Below are positions 26,413 through 34,349 of a stretch of 46,906 nucleotides of DNA, in pieces (position 1 is the stretch's first letter; each line of letters begins with the position of its first letter). The notes under the pieces were generated by a model. The model saw nothing but the letters and a program-made list of their open reading frames with translations. It had not been told where the DNA came from and searched no databases. Position numbers and translations under genes: made by a program. Origin of the DNA: Methylomonas sp. (lineage in GTDB: Bacteria > Pseudomonadota > Gammaproteobacteria > Methylococcales > Methylomonadaceae); NCBI GenBank assembly GCA_026989395.1, contig JALSJK010000149.1:1-46906 (forward strand), read 5' to 3'.

Positions 26413-27096
26413 CTATTTCTTATCTTTGGCGGTGTTTTCAGGTTGCTGGTTTTGTTTTTCTAGTTCATCGAGTATCATTTTTAATGCCAATTCATCCTCT
26501 TCATGTTCAAATTCCTGGGCGAGAGGGTCTGAATCAAAATCACAATCGGGCGCTTCAAATTCTGAACTGACGACTGAACCTTCCCAGCGTTCAAAAATAT
26601 TGTTCACTTCCAATGCAGGGTTAGTAGATTTTGAATTGAGTGATTCTTGAAGGTCAGCTCGATTTTGTCTGGCGGCGAGAATCTCTTTTTTGTTTTTCAA
26701 AACCTGTAATTGCTCTGAAATACGATTTAAATCGTCACGGATTTTTGATTCCTGTTTGCAGCTTTCCTCATACTGCTGTTCGAGTAGAGTAATTTGCTGT
26801 TGCGTTTGCCGCAAACGCTTTATGCATTGCAGCGCTTTTTGCTCGTCTTCATCTTCGTTTTTGGCTTTCAATGCGCGTTCAGACCATAATTGAGCTTGCT
26901 TTTGTTGCTGTTCCAGTTGCTTTTGATAATGAGTTGACATTTTGCTAACTCGATGTAAATGCAATCTTGTTTTGCTGCCCAATGTTTGTAGATCTTGGAT
27001 AGCTGCTTCGGCTAATGCTTCATGGTTTTCAAAGTCATTAGCGACTTGGTCGACCTGGCTTTTAATGCTGATAAAGATTTTTTTTAAGCTGTTCAT
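26413..27096 (-). CDS. pspA: PspA/IM30-family protein
   Basis: 227 aa from the chosen start MNSLKKIFISIKSQVDQVANDFENHEALAEAAI. The PspA/Vipp1 layout is clear: an amphipathic N-terminal helix, then long coiled-coil helices (LHRVSKMSTHYQKQLEQQQKQAQLWSERALKA, QITLLEQQYEESCKQESKIRDDL). An acidic C-terminal extension follows (EFEHEEDELALKMILDELEKQ). PspA oligomers bind and protect a damaged inner membrane and can hold a sigma-54 activator in check. The frame is open to 27294, but the ATG at 27096 has a GAGG ribosome binding site and matches the family start. A sigma-54 promoter lies at 27139-27152. Confidence 0.82.
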   Translation of the reverse strand: MNSLKKIFISIKSQVDQVANDFENHEALAEAAIQDLQTLGSKTRLHLHRVSKMSTHYQKQLEQQQKQAQLWSERALKAKNEDEDEQKALQCIKRLRQTQQQITLLEQQYEESCKQESKIRDDLNRISEQLQVLKNKKEILAARQNRADLQESLNSKSTNPALEVNNIFERWEGSVVSSEFEAPDCDFDSDPLAQEFEHEEDELALKMILDELEKQNQQPENTAKDKK

Positions 27097-27135
27097 GCTG
27101 GTTATCCTCGTTTTGTTTGTGAATTCAATGAAAAC

Positions 27136-27156
27136 AGAGCAGAAGCTATGCCAAAA
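27136..27156 (-). promoter_or_regulatory. Sigma-54 promoter for the pspA-like operon
   Basis: On the minus strand the sequence reads TTTTGGCATAGCTTCTGCTC. The invariant GG (27152-27151) and GC (27140-27139) are exactly 10 nt apart, and TTGGCA and CTGC agree with the -24/-12 consensus. Transcription should begin near 27127, about 30 nt before the pspA ATG. An imperfect TGTGC...CCACAC dyad at about 27191-27213 is a possible activator site. Confidence 0.7.
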
Positions 27157-27272
27157 TATTAATTTATTAAATATCAGTTGCTTATATATATGGTGTGGTT
27201 TTCCATGCACAGAAATGTACAATTTATGTATATTAGCTATGCTTAAAATGAATGATTGGTAGAGAAATTTAA

Positions 27273-28748
27273 ATGAGTAAAAAACTGAATCCAAGGCAAC
27301 GGGATTTTTTTAACCAGATTACAAGCCTGGCTTTTGTGAATCCTTTTAGCAAAGAAAGAGAGCAGGCTGATTGTGATTTGTTGGATATTGCGACAGGAAA
27401 ATTAAATTTGCTACAAAGAACGGAAATTATCCAGAAACTTCTTCAAGACCAATTAAAACAGCTCGAAGGAGTAACGGGGTTCCAAATTAGCCAATTTCAA
27501 GGCAAGACTCAGGAAACAATAAAATTAGCTTGGCTGTTCTATCAGTATCATGAATTTCAGGAGCAATTTAATAGGTTTATTGATAAACAAAACCGTAAAG
27601 GGGAAGAGCCAATCGAACTGCCATTTGCGAAAGAATTGATTAGGCGATTTTTATGTTCTGGGTTTACAGAATTGGAAACAGAGAGATTTATCGCTTTATT
27701 TTATCAGTTATGCCGAGGTTTTTATTTTATAAATTCATCAATTTCGGGTGATTGTCCAGCGATTATTCAATTACGCATGCATTTGTGGAATAACATTTTT
27801 ACTTTTAATCCACAGTGGTATCTAAATTATTTATGCGGAAAAATGGAAGATTTCTCGACTTTATTATTGGGCGCAACTGGAACAGGAAAAAGCCTTGCAG
27901 CGTATGCTATTGGATGTTCAGGGTTTATTCCATTTGATTTGGAAAAAAAACGTTTTCGTGAAAGTTTTACCCGCTCCTATCAGGCGATAAATTTATCGCA
28001 ATATCCGGCATCATTGTTGGAATCGGAGCTTTTTGGCCATAAAAAAGGTGCTTTTACCGGGGCTATAGAACAACATCAAGGATTATTTGCTAGATGCAGT
28101 GCTCATGGCGCTGTATTTATAGATGAAATTGGGGATATAGATATGCCAATTCAGGTGAAATTGCTTAATGTATTGCAAGATCGGACATTTAGTCCGGTTG
28201 GTAGTCATGAAAAAATAAGGTTTTCTGGTCGTGTAATCAGCGCAACTAATCGAAATATTGAGCAATTACGCAAAGATGGAATTTTCAGGGATGATCTGTA
28301 TTACAGATTATGTTCTGATGTTATTGTGGTTCCCAGTTTACAGCAGCGAATACGCGAAAACGCAAAAGAGCTAGGTAATTTGATTGCTGGTTTGCTTAAG
28401 CGTATTTTTGATGCGCCTGATCCTCAAATGGTATCACGAATAGAAAAAAGTATATTGAACATCGTGCCTGCTGATTATCACTGGCCAGGAAATGTTAGAG
28501 AGTTGGAGCAATGTATCCGGCGTATTTGTTTGGTTGGCTATTATAATGTTAGTGAGCAGTCCAACTTTACCGCAAATAATGGCTTCGTTCTCGCTGAAAA
28601 TTCTGGTGAAAGCAGTGTACAAAATCTACTGAAAAAATATTGTGATTTTTTATATCAGCGACATGGCAGTTATGAAGCCGTTGCCAGAATTACACAACTC
28701 GATCGGCGTACCGTAAAAAAATATATCGTTAGTAAGAAAGGAGCATGA
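27273..28748 (+). CDS. Sigma-54-dependent transcriptional activator (PspF-like, with N-terminal extension)
   Basis: 491 aa. The central AAA+ domain has Walker A GATGTGKS (200-207), the sigma-54 contact loop GAFTGA (259-264), Walker B VFIDE (281-285) and the ISATNRNI sensor. The C-terminus is a Fis-type helix-turn-helix (RHGSYEAVARITQLDRRTVKKYI). Unlike PspF, which lacks a sensor part, it carries about 180 residues before the ATPase with no recognisable receiver, PAS or GAF motif. It is divergent from the pspA-like gene, whose promoter is sigma-54 type, so it is the likely activator. Binding by PspA or a signal via the extension is unproven. Confidence 0.85.
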   Translation: MSKKLNPRQRDFFNQITSLAFVNPFSKEREQADCDLLDIATGKLNLLQRTEIIQKLLQDQLKQLEGVTGFQISQFQGKTQETIKLAWLFYQYHEFQEQFNRFIDKQNRKGEEPIELPFAKELIRRFLCSGFTELETERFIALFYQLCRGFYFINSSISGDCPAIIQLRMHLWNNIFTFNPQWYLNYLCGKMEDFSTLLLGATGTGKSLAAYAIGCSGFIPFDLEKKRFRESFTRSYQAINLSQYPASLLESELFGHKKGAFTGAIEQHQGLFARCSAHGAVFIDEIGDIDMPIQVKLLNVLQDRTFSPVGSHEKIRFSGRVISATNRNIEQLRKDGIFRDDLYYRLCSDVIVVPSLQQRIRENAKELGNLIAGLLKRIFDAPDPQMVSRIEKSILNIVPADYHWPGNVRELEQCIRRICLVGYYNVSEQSNFTANNGFVLAENSGESSVQNLLKKYCDFLYQRHGSYEAVARITQLDRRTVKKYIVSKKGA

Positions 28749-28904: not shown

Positions 28905-29570
28905 TTATTGCACGCCCTGCTCCAATCCTTTGAAAAACTCGCCAAGCGTCCGGCCTGCTTCTTCTGGTGGCATTTTGCTAAGATCACCAAATTGACTTGT
29001 GAATTCATCAGTTTGCTCGGCCATGTTTCTGACGACCATTTCGTTACTAATATTAGTCAGGGCAGCAATTATCCCTAATACACAAAACACGATATAAGCA
29101 GTTTTTGGTTTGATACCGTGGACTTCGATACTGGCAATAATCATTAAAATGGTGCCCAGTAGTGTTGATAAAATTGAACCGAGATAAGGAATAGGACTCA
29201 AAATGGCAACGAGGGGATAGACGACAGACGCATAAGCGATACAGCGATAGGAAACTTCATAAGATTCATTTGATCCCAGTAGTTTCCAGATGACAAAGAT
29301 AATGGCGGCGCCGATGAAGCTGCTGATGATGGAGGCAATTACAGTAAACAAGATAGTGCCAATTCCTGCCATCATTCCTCCATGCATGCCTAATCCGAGT
29401 ATCGAAAACAATGTCATTATCAGGCCAACGAAAATAGCCATTACAATGACAAATAACATGGGTTCCAGATAGCCCCCTGATTTCGGCATTGTTTGATAAA
29501 ACGCGACAGGAGTTTTTAATATTTTAAGCGCGGTTTGGATGATTTTATTGAAACTGGTGTTGCTTTCCAT
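28905..29570 (-). CDS. YIP1 family membrane protein
   Basis: 221 aa. KIIQTALKILKTPVAFYQTMPKSGGYLEPMLFVIVMAIFVG is the start of the Yip1 domain. Five membrane spans follow, including a Gly/Met-rich second region (GLGMHGGMMAGIGTILF) and GSNESYEVSYRCIAYASVVYPL, typical of the family. A short acidic soluble tail (about residues 180-221) ends it. Bacterial YIP1 proteins have no defined function. It is convergent with the sigma-54 activator. Confidence 0.8.
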   Translation of the reverse strand: MESNTSFNKIIQTALKILKTPVAFYQTMPKSGGYLEPMLFVIVMAIFVGLIMTLFSILGLGMHGGMMAGIGTILFTVIASIISSFIGAAIIFVIWKLLGSNESYEVSYRCIAYASVVYPLVAILSPIPYLGSILSTLLGTILMIIASIEVHGIKPKTAYIVFCVLGIIAALTNISNEMVVRNMAEQTDEFTSQFGDLSKMPPEEAGRTLGEFFKGLEQGVQ

Positions 29571-29923: not shown

Positions 29924-31213
29924 ATGAAGATGGAAAATATTAAACAAATGAAGTCGCAAGGCGCTGGCTTGGGTCGATTAATTAATCGAGTTCAGACCGT
30001 GTTTGTCGGCATGCTCCGGATTTGGTCAATACCCATTGTATTATTGCTCAGTCTGGCATCTGGTTTTACAACCTACTATGGCTTATCTCATTTCATCGTA
30101 CCCTGGATTGCATTAATTATTACTGTTGCAATTCAGTCTATTATCGTTATCTGTTCTCTTGAAATAGCGGGTATACACTGGAAGGCCAATCGCTTTCGCT
30201 ATTTTACGATTATGATTTCTTTATTGATCGCATTAGCCGCATCGATATCATTTTCCTATTTCAAGTTTTACGAGATATCGGAAAAGGATACCATTCATAT
30301 TCAAAGACTTAACCAGGTGCAGCAGGACGTTAATCAATATTTGAATAAAGTTACGGAGGTAAAAAACACCATACTTGAACAGCACCGGAAAGAATTGGAG
30401 CAAGCCTCCAAAGATGTCACACAAGCATTTTTTGGTACCCATCCTGGAATCGTACCTCGCTATAAAAATGTGGTTGGAGAAGGACCATTTTGGCGTCGTT
30501 ATAATCAAATTTATCAGGACAAGAAAAAAGAAAATCAATTGCGTGAGCAGGAATTCGTCAAACTGGATAAAAAAATCCTTAATCTACAAAGTAACTTGAC
30601 ACAGCTGGATGGGGCGCAGAGCAAAGAGAGCGTTTATCAAAAGATTTTGACTCTTTTACAGGAGGTGCAAGTTGATTTTAACCGTTTAATTTCAAGTGAA
30701 GGGGTTGAGGCGCCCAAAGCACCCACATTGATGTCCTACATGCAATTTACCCAAGGTGTTAAACCGTCTTTTTCAATGTGGAAGGGGTTTTCCATGTTCG
30801 CTTTTGTGTGTGCGGCAATGGTTGATTTTTTTACTGTCTTGTTGTCATACAGACTGGAGTTTACTGCCCCGGGACCATTAACTGAACAGGAAGAATCCCT
30901 GGTTTTTGAATGTCTCAGGCAATTTACTGAGTTCAGAATCAATGAAAATGATGAGCTGGAAATGGTGATTGAAAAGACAGAACTGGAAAGAGCCAGACAT
31001 TATTCTGACTGGTCAAGAATGTTCGCGGTTGGATTTTTATTAAGTCGAGGCTTTCTGCGAAAAATTGATGAAAGAACAGTCGAATTTGCCCCCAATCTTT
31101 ATCCATTGATTGCTGAGCACATGGGGGATAAATTGCAGGAATTAAAGGCCAAGGCCGCATCAAAGACAAAATCAGAAGCAGTAAAGCTGGAGGTGGTTCA
31201 TGGCAATGACTGA
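29924..31213 (+). CDS. Polytopic membrane protein with internal coiled coil, unknown family
   Basis: 429 aa. Three N-terminal hydrophobic segments (IWSIPIVLLLSLASGFTTYYGL, WIALIITVAIQSIIVICSLEI, FTIMISLLIALAASISFSYF) precede a long charged region (about residues 115-260) with coiled-coil character. A further span follows (GFSMFAFVCAAMVDFFTVLLSY), then a cytoplasmic C-terminus ending in a Lys/Ala helix. I recognise no family. The stop overlaps the next gene by 14 bp, implying coupled expression with an SPFH-like protein. Two ATGs (29924 and two codons on) are possible. Confidence 0.7.
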   Translation: MKMENIKQMKSQGAGLGRLINRVQTVFVGMLRIWSIPIVLLLSLASGFTTYYGLSHFIVPWIALIITVAIQSIIVICSLEIAGIHWKANRFRYFTIMISLLIALAASISFSYFKFYEISEKDTIHIQRLNQVQQDVNQYLNKVTEVKNTILEQHRKELEQASKDVTQAFFGTHPGIVPRYKNVVGEGPFWRRYNQIYQDKKKENQLREQEFVKLDKKILNLQSNLTQLDGAQSKESVYQKILTLLQEVQVDFNRLISSEGVEAPKAPTLMSYMQFTQGVKPSFSMWKGFSMFAFVCAAMVDFFTVLLSYRLEFTAPGPLTEQEESLVFECLRQFTEFRINENDELEMVIEKTELERARHYSDWSRMFAVGFLLSRGFLRKIDERTVEFAPNLYPLIAEHMGDKLQELKAKAASKTKSEAVKLEVVHGND

Positions 31214-32549
31214 AGATTCCGTTGAAGCCTGGTTGCAAACGCCATTCCCAGGCTCGGATAGTTCAGATCGTCCTATTTGGGATCCAGGTTTTGATCCGGA
31301 AAGAAGAATTGTAGTTTCTAGGTTAGGGCCATATTATAAGGTGTTTCTCAGGCCGCCACGATTTGTTAAACGTTTTTATCATACTGTTTATCCATTATTA
31401 ATTGAAAACTGGAATCTGGCGACACAAGCCAAACTTTATGATGGTTTTTGCACCATGGATGTGGCGTTGGAAGTCCGATTTCAGGCGACATTAAAATATG
31501 TTGAAAAAAATCTTGAGTTTTTATCCAAGATTAATGAACACATCAAAACGGTTTATGAAGGTATTTTGATCGATATTCTGGATAAGGAATTACTTGAATT
31601 GGCTGATGGAGAATGGGTGCAAACTGGTTTGAATCCAGTCGCCAGGCAAATTGAAAATGCGATCAATGAAACCTTGATGCTGAAAAATATTCAATGCAGG
31701 GCTTTATGTAGTTTGCAGCCCAGTTTTGAGGACTTTTCTGATGATGAAACAATCGATAGTCGTTTTGTTCAGGAGTCTGTTTATCTGAATATTGTCAAGA
31801 AAAATTTCGAATTTCGCGAGAAGAAAGCCCAGGAAGCCTTTCGTCAGGAACAAAAACTGGAGCAGGAAAAGCTGGAGCAGAAACGCAAAATGCTCGAACA
31901 GTTAAATGAAGAGGATGAAATCGTCAGACAAAAACAGGCCATTGAAGCAGAAAATATCAAGCGCCAGTTGATGGAACAAAAACAACACCTTGATGAACAA
32001 TTAACACTCGAAGAAAAGCTGTTGGCTGAGAAAGTCAAACATGAAGTAAAAATGAAGGAAATAGAGCAGGAAGCTAAAGAAGAAGAGCAAAGAAAGCTGC
32101 TTTTACGACAGCAACAAATTGAGCAGGATTTATTAGAAGAAAAATTAAAACATCAAGAACAAATCAAGGACAGGGAAACTGAAATGGAAATTGAGCAATA
32201 TAAAAAACAACAACGAAAATGGCTGGAGGCCAAAAGACGACTTCAAGAGGAAAAATACCGAAATGAAGAATTATTGAGTCAACGGGAAAGGGAGGCTGAA
32301 TTCAAGGCTCAGGAGCAGCATCAACTGGAAAAGCAAAAGTTGCTGGAGCAGTTACGGCAGGAACAATTAAAGCATGAGGCGCGAATCAAGGAAATGGAGC
32401 TGGAAGCTGAATTGGTACGGCAACAGAAACAACACGAAACGACCGAAAAAACTGAAGATTTTCTGCGAAAGGAAATAGAGATGTTAGTCTTGGAAAAACA
32501 ACGTGCAGAGCTCAATGAAGAAATAAAAAGAGTTCAGGCTGAAGAATAG
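31200..32549 (+). CDS. SPFH/stomatin-like domain with long coiled coil
   Basis: 449 aa. Residues about 37-185 show a stomatin/flotillin-like pattern: RIVVSRLGPYYKVFLRP, then TKA-like LATQAKLYDGFCTMDVALEVRFQATLKYVEKN, and VARQIENAINETLMLKNIQCRALCSLQPSF. Residues 200-449 are continuous Glu/Lys/Gln/Leu coiled coil. There is no membrane span, unlike HflK/C, so membrane contact may be through its overlapping partner encoded just upstream. SPFH proteins form large rings that regulate membrane proteases. Domain assignment is by pattern only. Confidence 0.55.
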   Translation: MAMTEDSVEAWLQTPFPGSDSSDRPIWDPGFDPERRIVVSRLGPYYKVFLRPPRFVKRFYHTVYPLLIENWNLATQAKLYDGFCTMDVALEVRFQATLKYVEKNLEFLSKINEHIKTVYEGILIDILDKELLELADGEWVQTGLNPVARQIENAINETLMLKNIQCRALCSLQPSFEDFSDDETIDSRFVQESVYLNIVKKNFEFREKKAQEAFRQEQKLEQEKLEQKRKMLEQLNEEDEIVRQKQAIEAENIKRQLMEQKQHLDEQLTLEEKLLAEKVKHEVKMKEIEQEAKEEEQRKLLLRQQQIEQDLLEEKLKHQEQIKDRETEMEIEQYKKQQRKWLEAKRRLQEEKYRNEELLSQREREAEFKAQEQHQLEKQKLLEQLRQEQLKHEARIKEMELEAELVRQQKQHETTEKTEDFLRKEIEMLVLEKQRAELNEEIKRVQAEE

Positions 32550-32581
32550 CCGAAAATAGCAATATCGCAGGAGAAGTTAAG

Positions 32582-33445
32582 ATGAAATGGCGCAATCGCA
32601 GAAGAAGCAGTAATGTCGAAGATCGAAGAGGCTCAACAATTTCAAGAGGGGCAAAGGGAGGCGGTATTGGTCTGATCGCTTTAGCCTTGATTGGCATGTA
32701 TTTTGGTGTTGATCCAAGAATAATCATGGGTATTGGTAGTCAGCTTTCAGGAGGTGGAGAAGCTACAACGACCCAGCGTGCTAATTATAAACCATCACCC
32801 AAAGGACAGCAGCTTGGGGAATTTGTCTCCGTTGTATTAGCTGATTCCGAAGATACCTGGCATGCGATTTTTAAACAAATGGGAAGACGCTATCAGGAGC
32901 CGAAACTGGTTCTGTTTACAGATAGGGTTCAGTCAGCCTGTGGTATGGCGGAAGCAGCAATGGGGCCTTTTTATTGTCCAGGGGATGCAAAAGTTTACGT
33001 TGACTTGGGTTTTTACGATGAATTGAAAAGGCGACACAATGCGCCTGGTGATTTTGCCCAGGCTTATGTCGTGGCGCATGAAGTGGGGCATCATGTGCAA
33101 AATTTGTTGGGAATTTCCAGCAAAGTGCAAAATGCCCGCAGCCGGATGAGTCAAGCACAGGGCAATGAACTATCAGTGAGGCTGGAGCTTCAAGCAGACT
33201 GTTTTGCTGGGTTGTGGGCGCAACATACTCAGCAGACCAAGCAGGTATTGGAGCAAGGCGATGTTGAAGAGGCCTTGAATGCCGCATCTGCCATAGGCGA
33301 TGATCGTCTGCAAAAACAGGCCAGAGGCTATGCTTCGCCAGAATCATTTACACATGGGACATCCAGGCAGCGGGTAAAATGGTTTAAACAGGGAATGCAG
33401 GCTAGTAGTATTAATGACTGCGATACTTTTTCCGTCCGTTTATAA
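32582..33445 (+). CDS. ypfJ: YpfJ-type neutral zinc metallopeptidase
   Basis: 287 aa. A basic N-terminus (MKWRNRRRSSNVEDRRG) is followed by one membrane span (GGGIGLIALALIGMYFG). The rest is the YpfJ peptidase domain: QSACGMAEAAMGPFYCPGDAKVYVDLGFYDEL, the zinc motif HEVGHHVQNLLG, and LELQADCFAGLWAQH with the third ligand. It is an inner membrane-anchored peptidase facing the periplasm by the usual topology. It lies 32 bp after the SPFH-like gene, and that context resembles SPFH-protease pairs. Its substrate is unknown. Confidence 0.9.
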   Translation: MKWRNRRRSSNVEDRRGSTISRGAKGGGIGLIALALIGMYFGVDPRIIMGIGSQLSGGGEATTTQRANYKPSPKGQQLGEFVSVVLADSEDTWHAIFKQMGRRYQEPKLVLFTDRVQSACGMAEAAMGPFYCPGDAKVYVDLGFYDELKRRHNAPGDFAQAYVVAHEVGHHVQNLLGISSKVQNARSRMSQAQGNELSVRLELQADCFAGLWAQHTQQTKQVLEQGDVEEALNAASAIGDDRLQKQARGYASPESFTHGTSRQRVKWFKQGMQASSINDCDTFSVRL

Positions 33446-33452
33446 AGGTTTT

Positions 33453-33725
33453 ATGCAAATTTCTCCCGAAAGCATTGGCTACATTGCGGCAGTATTGACA
33501 ACTTCCTCATTTTTGCCACAAGCCATATTGACCATAAAAACCAAGGATACCGAATCTTTGTCATTAGGAATGTACAGTGCCTTTACATTAGGTGTTTTAC
33601 TCTGGTTGATTTATGGCGTTTATCTTGACGATAAAGCGATTATTTTTGCCAATGCCATCACTCTTGTGCTTTCAGCATCAATTTTATCAGTGAAGATTTT
33701 TAATACCATCTTTAAAAACGAATAA
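33453..33725 (+). CDS. SemiSWEET-type PQ-loop sugar transporter
   Basis: 90 aa from the ATG at 33453 (a longer in-frame start at 33414 would overlap ypfJ). MQISPESIGYIAAVLTTSSFLPQAILTIKTKDTESLSLGMYSAF carries the PQ-loop signature, followed by LWLIYGVYL and a third hydrophobic span. SemiSWEETs are three-helix dimeric facilitators for sugars. A weak AAAGG ribosome binding site precedes the ATG. Its placement 8 bp after ypfJ suggests co-transcription without an obvious functional link. Confidence 0.82.
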   Translation: MQISPESIGYIAAVLTTSSFLPQAILTIKTKDTESLSLGMYSAFTLGVLLWLIYGVYLDDKAIIFANAITLVLSASILSVKIFNTIFKNE

Positions 33726-33752: not shown

Positions 33753-34349
33753 TCATGTTCGTTCCTTAATGTCATCAAATTGTTTACGAATTTTTTCCTT
33801 ATTTTGCCGATAAGCTATCGCATCACCATAATCTAGAAAATGTTGGTATCGGCTGTGTAATGTGCTGATACGTCTTGCATGTTTAATTGGACACCAAAAT
33901 TGTTCAGTTCTGGCGGCAATTTCCTGAGTGAAAGCGATTAGACCATTAAAATAGCTGCAATAAGCGCAATTTATCTTTTCAACAATATTCAGATAATTTA
34001 AATAATGACGATCGAAAACGATATAGTTGGAACGTTTGACTTTTGGAATACCATAAATTGGAAAACAAATGCTGTGATAGAGGGAAACGAAAATATCGAA
34101 TAAAATTGTAGGGAAAAGCACTGACCAGATAATTGGGGTGCTCAGAATATGTTTAATGGGAGCAGCTTTAAAATAATCTAATAAACGCTGTAGATGTTGT
34201 TTATGCTGCTGGATAACAGAATTTTCAAAGCAAACCTTTTTTTGTTGTATTTGATAACTTGAAGTATCTTGCTGATTTTGGATTTCATCAATGAGTTCTG
34301 ACTCAAGGGTTTTTATCTTATCTAGGAGATCATCAATTGTAGTTGTCAT
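33753..34349 (-). CDS. Conserved-looking hypothetical with cysteine motifs
   Basis: 198 aa. An N-terminal helical/coiled region (residues 1-60) precedes a hydrophobic central stretch IIWSVLFPTILFDIFVSLYHSICFP, which may be membrane-associated. NYLNIVEKINCAYCSYFNGLIAFTQEIAARTEQFWCPIKHARR then provides three cysteines in a CxxC...C arrangement suited to metal binding. I do not recognise a function. The Cys-rich block looks strongly constrained, which argues for a real conserved family. Confidence 0.65.
   Translation of the reverse strand: MTTTIDDLLDKIKTLESELIDEIQNQQDTSSYQIQQKKVCFENSVIQQHKQHLQRLLDYFKAAPIKHILSTPIIWSVLFPTILFDIFVSLYHSICFPIYGIPKVKRSNYIVFDRHYLNYLNIVEKINCAYCSYFNGLIAFTQEIAARTEQFWCPIKHARRISTLHSRYQHFLDYGDAIAYRQNKEKIRKQFDDIKERT

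Follow-up and report, generated by a model that had tools for sequence, protein, structure and literature searches.

The described systems closest to the genes considered here are built around SPFH proteins. HflK and HflC are membrane-anchored and regulate the protease FtsH. Classic SPFH proteins possess an N-terminal hydrophobic stretch, which SPFH8 and SPFH9 lack, and SPFH genes often lie in operons with NfeD genes (PMC2636767). YdjI of Bacillus subtilis contains a zinc-finger motif besides its recognised SPFH domain and works with PspA; it is soluble by prediction, has no anchor, and needs YdjG/YdjH for its placement at the membrane (PMC8581546). We have analyzed two adjacent genes, here termed A and B, in a stretch of 46,906 nucleotides (GenBank assembly GCA_026989395.1, contig JALSJK010000149.1; the window) from the 3.27 Mb, 182-contig genome of Methylomonas sp. 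These genes are an undescribed, lineage-specific gene pair, and B is probably of the SPFH type, with A as its dedicated membrane partner.

Gene A (29924..31213, plus strand) is called as an open reading frame (ORF) encoding a membrane protein of 429 amino acids (aa). Gene B (31200..32549, plus strand) is called as an ORF for a soluble protein of 449 aa, in which a predicted SPFH-type fold precedes a long charged helix or coiled coil. The two frames share 14 bp (31200..31213, plus strand), an overlap that suggests translational coupling. In profile scans neither protein matched a Pfam or NCBIfam family above its cut-off. A third ORF in the same direction, encoding a zinc metallopeptidase of the YpfJ type, begins after a gap of 32 bp. 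The first-pass annotation of this DNA had described the same three ORFs, strand, overlap and gap, all of which the coordinates bear out, and had interpreted the trio as a candidate membrane quality-control assembly beside a psp-like stress locus.

The conservation of A and B was studied in three sets of sequences: 41 relatives, 221 genomes of the order Methylococcales, and 80 named loci fetched with A, the best 80 of 158 relatives. Most of the 80 records carry Methylococcales titles (Methylomonas, Methylobacter, Methylotuvimicrobium, Methylovulum and others), and some are titled just as 'Gammaproteobacteria' or 'proteobacterium'. Two are metagenome-assembled genomes titled 'Bacteroidetes' (L153, L178), which we take to be mislabelled or mixed bins. 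Both genes are carried by an identical set of 33 of the 41 relatives, in which, as read by eye, the two matches share a contig and under 200 bp separates their ends; both are missing from the other eight. Co-occurrence extends across the order, where a survey that counted presence, not side-by-side placement, detected A in 148 of the 221 genomes and B in 149. The two sets differ by the single genome G719, whose B gene starts at base 3 of its contig. In two genomes (G739 and G743) the genes, or pieces of them, are on separate contigs.

In the named loci B stands directly after A in 77 of 80 cases, and in the three misses (L143, L164 and L173) the contig ends at the A match or no more than 140 bp from it. 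Of the 76 loci where the B frame is complete, 72 have overlapping A and B frames, and the median spacing is −8 bp with script-chosen starts. Absence of the pair is scattered across families that otherwise possess it, for example in the one-contig genomes G750 and G731, and both genes are gone together, G719 aside. Such scattered joint absence fits a two-protein unit that can be lost in one piece. The real third gene with the widest distribution occurs in 15 of the 80 loci, largely in Methylomonas records. The ORF families that occurred most commonly as a 'third gene' near the pair proved to be shadow ORFs inside A or B in other frames, and were rejected. We conclude that A and B form a strict gene pair in Methylococcales, and that this pair, not the trio, is the unit. 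The survey of gene neighborhoods that the first-pass annotation had proposed has thus, for its first two genes, returned a conserved overlapping pair that matches no family above cut-off. The pair is present in Methylotuvimicrobium buryatense 5G (L131), a tractable laboratory strain.

Matches to A outside the order are few. Four of 274 genomes of the class contain one, three belonging to its own order and the fourth being G163 (E = 3.1e-4), and among 398 genomes of the phylum there are seven, namely the window's own and six that are partial and weak. B was not searched for at class or phylum level; by eye, in the stretches read, no B-like neighbor was seen beside the proteins of G163, G542 and G666. 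The contig of G440 ends about 470 bp past its A-like gene. Neither A nor residues 1-217 of B found a match among plasmids, and viral contigs contained no relative of B. Large proteins of 822-1,120 aa in three genomes of the phylum outside the order share the N-terminal membrane motif of A (TTxxGM..., E = 5e-8 to 5e-4). Those with the A-type motif are encoded at positions 7664-10942 of L189 (G542), 5814-9176 of L190 (G666) and 100-2568 of L188 (G440). To judge from these sequences, a wider family sharing the membrane motif of A may exist.

B lacks any hydrophobic segment. The maximum Kyte-Doolittle value over 19 residues is 0.77 for the window protein, and the highest value among 76 B members is 1.76, at ORF residue 145; none has an N-terminal transmembrane (TM) segment. 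E, Q, K and L are abundant in the C-terminal 249 residues. The soluble protein with some 250 residues of coiled coil described in the first-pass annotation is thus recovered. Over the 76 loci B ranges from 347 to 542 aa in length, with a highly variable coiled coil. The conserved domain reaches approximately residue 180 in the alignment. Identity to the window protein is 28-63% in an alignment of 28 sequences, and A is far better conserved, with 28 orthologues 47-81% identical to the window protein. Thirteen residues are invariant in the 28 aligned B proteins (W27, F31, R35, P52, R58, F59, C84, Q95, W139, E157, L159, C170 and F176), the outermost of which define a span of residues 27-176 (31278..31727, plus strand), and 10 columns are invariant in an alignment of 54 sequences. 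The cysteines C84 (31449-31451) and C170 (31707-31709) are invariant in 28/28 and 54/54 proteins, and could form a metal or redox site.

We modeled residues 1-245 of B with AlphaFold2, using 54 sequences. The model has a mean predicted local distance difference test score (pLDDT) of 82.7; when residues 31-170 are divided into 14 blocks of ten, pLDDT is 90 or higher for 11 of them. Its order of elements is SPFH-like, comprising five strands, four helices of which two are long, a strand and a long helix, and the SPFH-type fold would occupy approximately residues 32-180. Comparison of the model with the Protein Data Bank (PDB) by Foldseek placed SPFH proteins or their complexes, as judged by entry title, at every rank from 1 to 24, including flotillin, stomatin, erlin, HflK/C and QmcA-YbbJ (8z5g); FliL was found at rank 25. 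The match to flotillin 9l3g had E = 2.2e-4 and a probability of 1.00. VIA-align aligned 193 residues of B with human prohibitin 9oa0 (Z = 10.4, root-mean-square deviation (rmsd) 10.4), and 108 residues of the isolated domain with the SPFH structure 4fvj (Z = 8.7, rmsd 3.4).

A number of results weigh against this assignment. Just two Foldseek matches attained E ≤ 0.001, and the Z value of 8.7 for the isolated domain is close to those of unrelated folds such as dihydroneopterin aldolase (8.1). The Pfam family Band_7 was matched by none of 28 B members at E ≤ 1. In a profile-profile comparison with 25 Band_7 proteins from the same genomes, 9 of 40 block-shuffled decoys, as well as the reversed profile, scored at least as high as B itself; hhalign of B against SPFH gave P = 0.13 and 0.16, which does not improve on decoys. 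Evidently an SPFH relationship is not detectable in the sequence of B by Pfam, NCBIfam, PHROGs, PDB sequences or profile-profile comparison. The stomatin-like N-terminus proposed in the first-pass annotation, together with a profile search as its check, thus finds no sequence match by that route, and is recovered in the structure predicted by AlphaFold2 and compared by Foldseek and VIA-align. Taking these results together, we consider it very probable that B adopts an SPFH-type fold, as modeled, while its common descent with SPFH proteins is unproven.

Protein A is polytopic. Hydropathy analysis identifies hydrophobic windows at residues 23-54, 50-86, 90-116 and 287-311, with a helical coiled-coil region at approximately 118-260 and a conserved C-terminal soluble domain at approximately 321-400. 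These four segments, which flank a long helical region, correspond well to the membrane protein with a long internal coiled coil that had been claimed at this position. Six lysine or arginine residues precede TM1 and three lie in the TM2-TM3 loop. This distribution around the first three TM segments suggests that the N-terminus and the C-terminal domain are inside and that the helical region 118-280 is outside. The charges at TM4 are at odds with such an arrangement, with two K/R before it and one K/R plus five D/E after, so that the topology of A is uncertain. The AlphaFold2 model of A has a mean pLDDT of 75.9, with values of 85-97 in the coiled coil.

Some known families and folds may be compared with A. 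VIA-align returned mainly helical bundles aligned over residues 92-278, with Z values up to 9.8 that fall within the range stated to be uninformative for helical models. Relatives of solved structure are weak, mostly coiled-coil matches (best E = 0.002). DUF4407 (PF14362) is matched by 19 of 29 A members at E ≤ 1, with a best value of 2.5e-6, and the match is co-linear over the TM segments and the coiled coil in L034 and L054. Where bit scores are printed they fall below the curated cut-off of 31.3, being 12.3 for A of the window and at most 20.1 for four of nine members scanned singly, and we claim no membership of that family. NfeD is not matched by A of the window, and is absent from the 25 of 96 families listed for the 29 A members at E ≤ 1.

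On balance we favor the view that A and B constitute a lineage-specific, two-component SPFH membrane scaffold in which A anchors B, because B combines a predicted SPFH fold backed by coiled coil with the lack of an anchor, and its gene usually overlaps that of a polytopic partner. B would oligomerize by means of its SPFH domain and coiled coil, giving a ring or cage at the cytosolic face. A would substitute for the N-terminal anchor missing in B, contacting B and seating the assembly at the inner membrane. The coiled-coil region of A would then sit either in the periplasm or inside the intracytoplasmic membranes, in their lumen, with the N-terminus and the C-terminal domain in the cytosol. Such an assembly might organize a membrane patch, or shelter it, together with the proteins that it contains, as proposed for QmcA-YbbJ-type pairs or for YdjI-YdjG/YdjH. 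Besides the misfit of charges at TM4, two features of A detract from this scheme: its membrane part is modeled at pLDDT 54-71, and it has no significant fold match, the best Foldseek E value being 0.17 with none ≤0.001.

The absence of such a match bears equally on a different reading, in which B is merely SPFH-like and A is a transmembrane sensor, with an outer coiled coil and a cytosolic winged-helix-like end that signals to B. The secondary structure of the C-terminal domain of A is in keeping with this, as is the lack of sequence homology between B and SPFH proteins, and winged-helix regulators appear among the Foldseek matches of A (E ≥ 0.19, the aligned part of A not being shown). Yet the top 24 fold rows for B are all SPFH entries, and we regard a sensor as doubtful.

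We turn now to the neighbors of the A and B genes. The gene that follows B (32582..33445, plus strand) encodes a protein of 287 aa whose identity is unambiguous from profile scans (PF04228, E = 4e-120, and NCBIfam NF050010), in agreement with the membrane zinc peptidase of the first-pass annotation. The proposal made there was that an SPFH ring of B, with A, controls this peptidase in a quality-control assembly like FtsH-HflKC. The genes are co-directional with a gap of 32 bp in the window, and linkage is found in all three genomes of the genus that were examined (the window, L100 and L104). However, YpfJ is linked to the pair in just 2 of the 80 loci, both in the genus of the window, although at least 1,000 bp of sequence lies beyond B in 68 of the 76 loci where B is complete. 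Nor does the presence of YpfJ follow that of the pair (12/33 pair-bearing versus 3/8 pair-lacking genomes, Fisher p = 1). There is therefore no support for a trio in which an SPFH protein controls the zinc peptidase, and control of YpfJ by A and B is strongly disfavored and highly improbable. No other conserved, linked membrane protease was found beside A-B, no third gene exceeding 15 of the 80 loci.

The adjoining psp-like locus is indeed present, with a PspA_IM30 protein (26413-27294, E = 1.9e-9) and a sigma-54 activator (27273-28748) upstream of A; a Yip1-domain protein (28905-29570) is also encoded upstream. The PspA_IM30 protein barely exceeds its cut-off (37.9 versus 33.9 bits). As listed, its ORF runs into that of the sigma-54 activator, which is divergent; next come an uncharacterized 447-aa gene and RND efflux genes. 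A sigma-54 motif was found upstream of A in 0 of 77 regions; the control gave 0 of 237, so the pattern was perhaps too strict. The proximity of PspA_IM30 and activator genes, within 4 kb in the window, raises the idea of a membrane-stress assembly like YdjGHI of B. subtilis, where B binds PspA and A anchors the complex; YdjI, too, is an SPFH protein that has no anchor and is linked with PspA. PspA is matched in 17 of 33 pair-bearing against 1 of 8 pair-lacking genomes, although p = 0.06 (Fisher) comes from few genomes and just 12 of the 18 matches exceed the family cut-off. Against this, 16 of the 33 pair-bearing genomes show no PspA match, and a PspA gene is linked to the pair in 1 of the 80 loci, again in the genus of the window, so that psp linkage is not conserved among them. 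The co-occurrence is a weak hint, without linkage, and we judge PspA recruitment to be unlikely. In the first-pass interpretation, then, the probable SPFH-type fold and the conserved pairing of the first two genes have stood, and inclusion of YpfJ or psp has not; both are local bystanders of A-B.

Downstream of YpfJ is a SemiSWEET transporter ORF (33414-33725), which overlaps YpfJ if the listed start is taken. It is followed by a 198-aa protein (33753-34349) that has no Pfam match above cut-off and is conserved in the same-genus locus L104.

The lineage carrying A-B is one of methanotrophs, since PmoA/AMO is present in 33 of the 41 relatives and the records are mostly titled as Methylococcales. 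The biogenesis of intracytoplasmic membranes in methanotrophs is stated to be unknown (PMC9445010), and a role of A-B in these membranes is possible. The link is attractive because the pair is confined, within the searches made, to methanotroph families. All pair-bearing genomes come from Methylococcales families f1-f6, and no genome of f7 or f8, where AMO is more divergent, appears in the match lists. A scaffold specifically of the pMMO-bearing intracytoplasmic membranes of gammaproteobacterial methanotrophs would accord with that distribution, but there are PmoA-positive genomes without the pair, including the one-contig genomes G750 (f1), G731 (f4) and G697 (f6), and pMMO-based life thus does not require the pair. 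Moreover, a PmoA gene was found in none of the 80 named loci (tblastn, E ≤ 1e-5), in a search that did detect the four PmoA-bearing control loci. Such a specific function is accordingly improbable. Four genomes of the order that are 99-100% complete (G005, G039, G789 and G795) have absent or weak PmoA (G789, E = 2.8e-9), perhaps as a result of binning losses. In a still more speculative scheme, B would belong to a sequence-unrecognizable SPFH branch private to gammaproteobacterial methanotrophs that has traded its own anchor for the polytopic A, whose coiled coil reaches the lumen of the intracytoplasmic membranes, and the two would shape, space or maintain those membranes. Our literature search returned no paper joining methanotrophs, intracytoplasmic membranes and SPFH, and none on Methylococcus with SPFH.

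A-B would represent an SPFH-type scaffold in methanotrophs that was missed by the profile libraries tried, with a strict single membrane partner. It also provides a defined gene pair for study where the making of intracytoplasmic membranes is stated to be unexplained (PMC9445010). How does it compare with the known systems? In HflK/HflC-FtsH the SPFH fold and coiled coil are those predicted for B, but no protease is conserved beside A-B. SPFH-NfeD pairs such as QmcA-YbbJ resemble A-B in that an SPFH-type gene is paired with that of a membrane partner; unlike them, A has no NfeD match in the families listed and B has no N-terminal hydrophobic stretch. Finally, YdjI differs from B in its SPFH sequence match, in having more than a single partner gene and in its psp link, which for A-B is not conserved. 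Nevertheless, in the B. subtilis pspA-ydjGHI operon, as in A-B, an anchorless SPFH-type protein is encoded after genes for membrane proteins.

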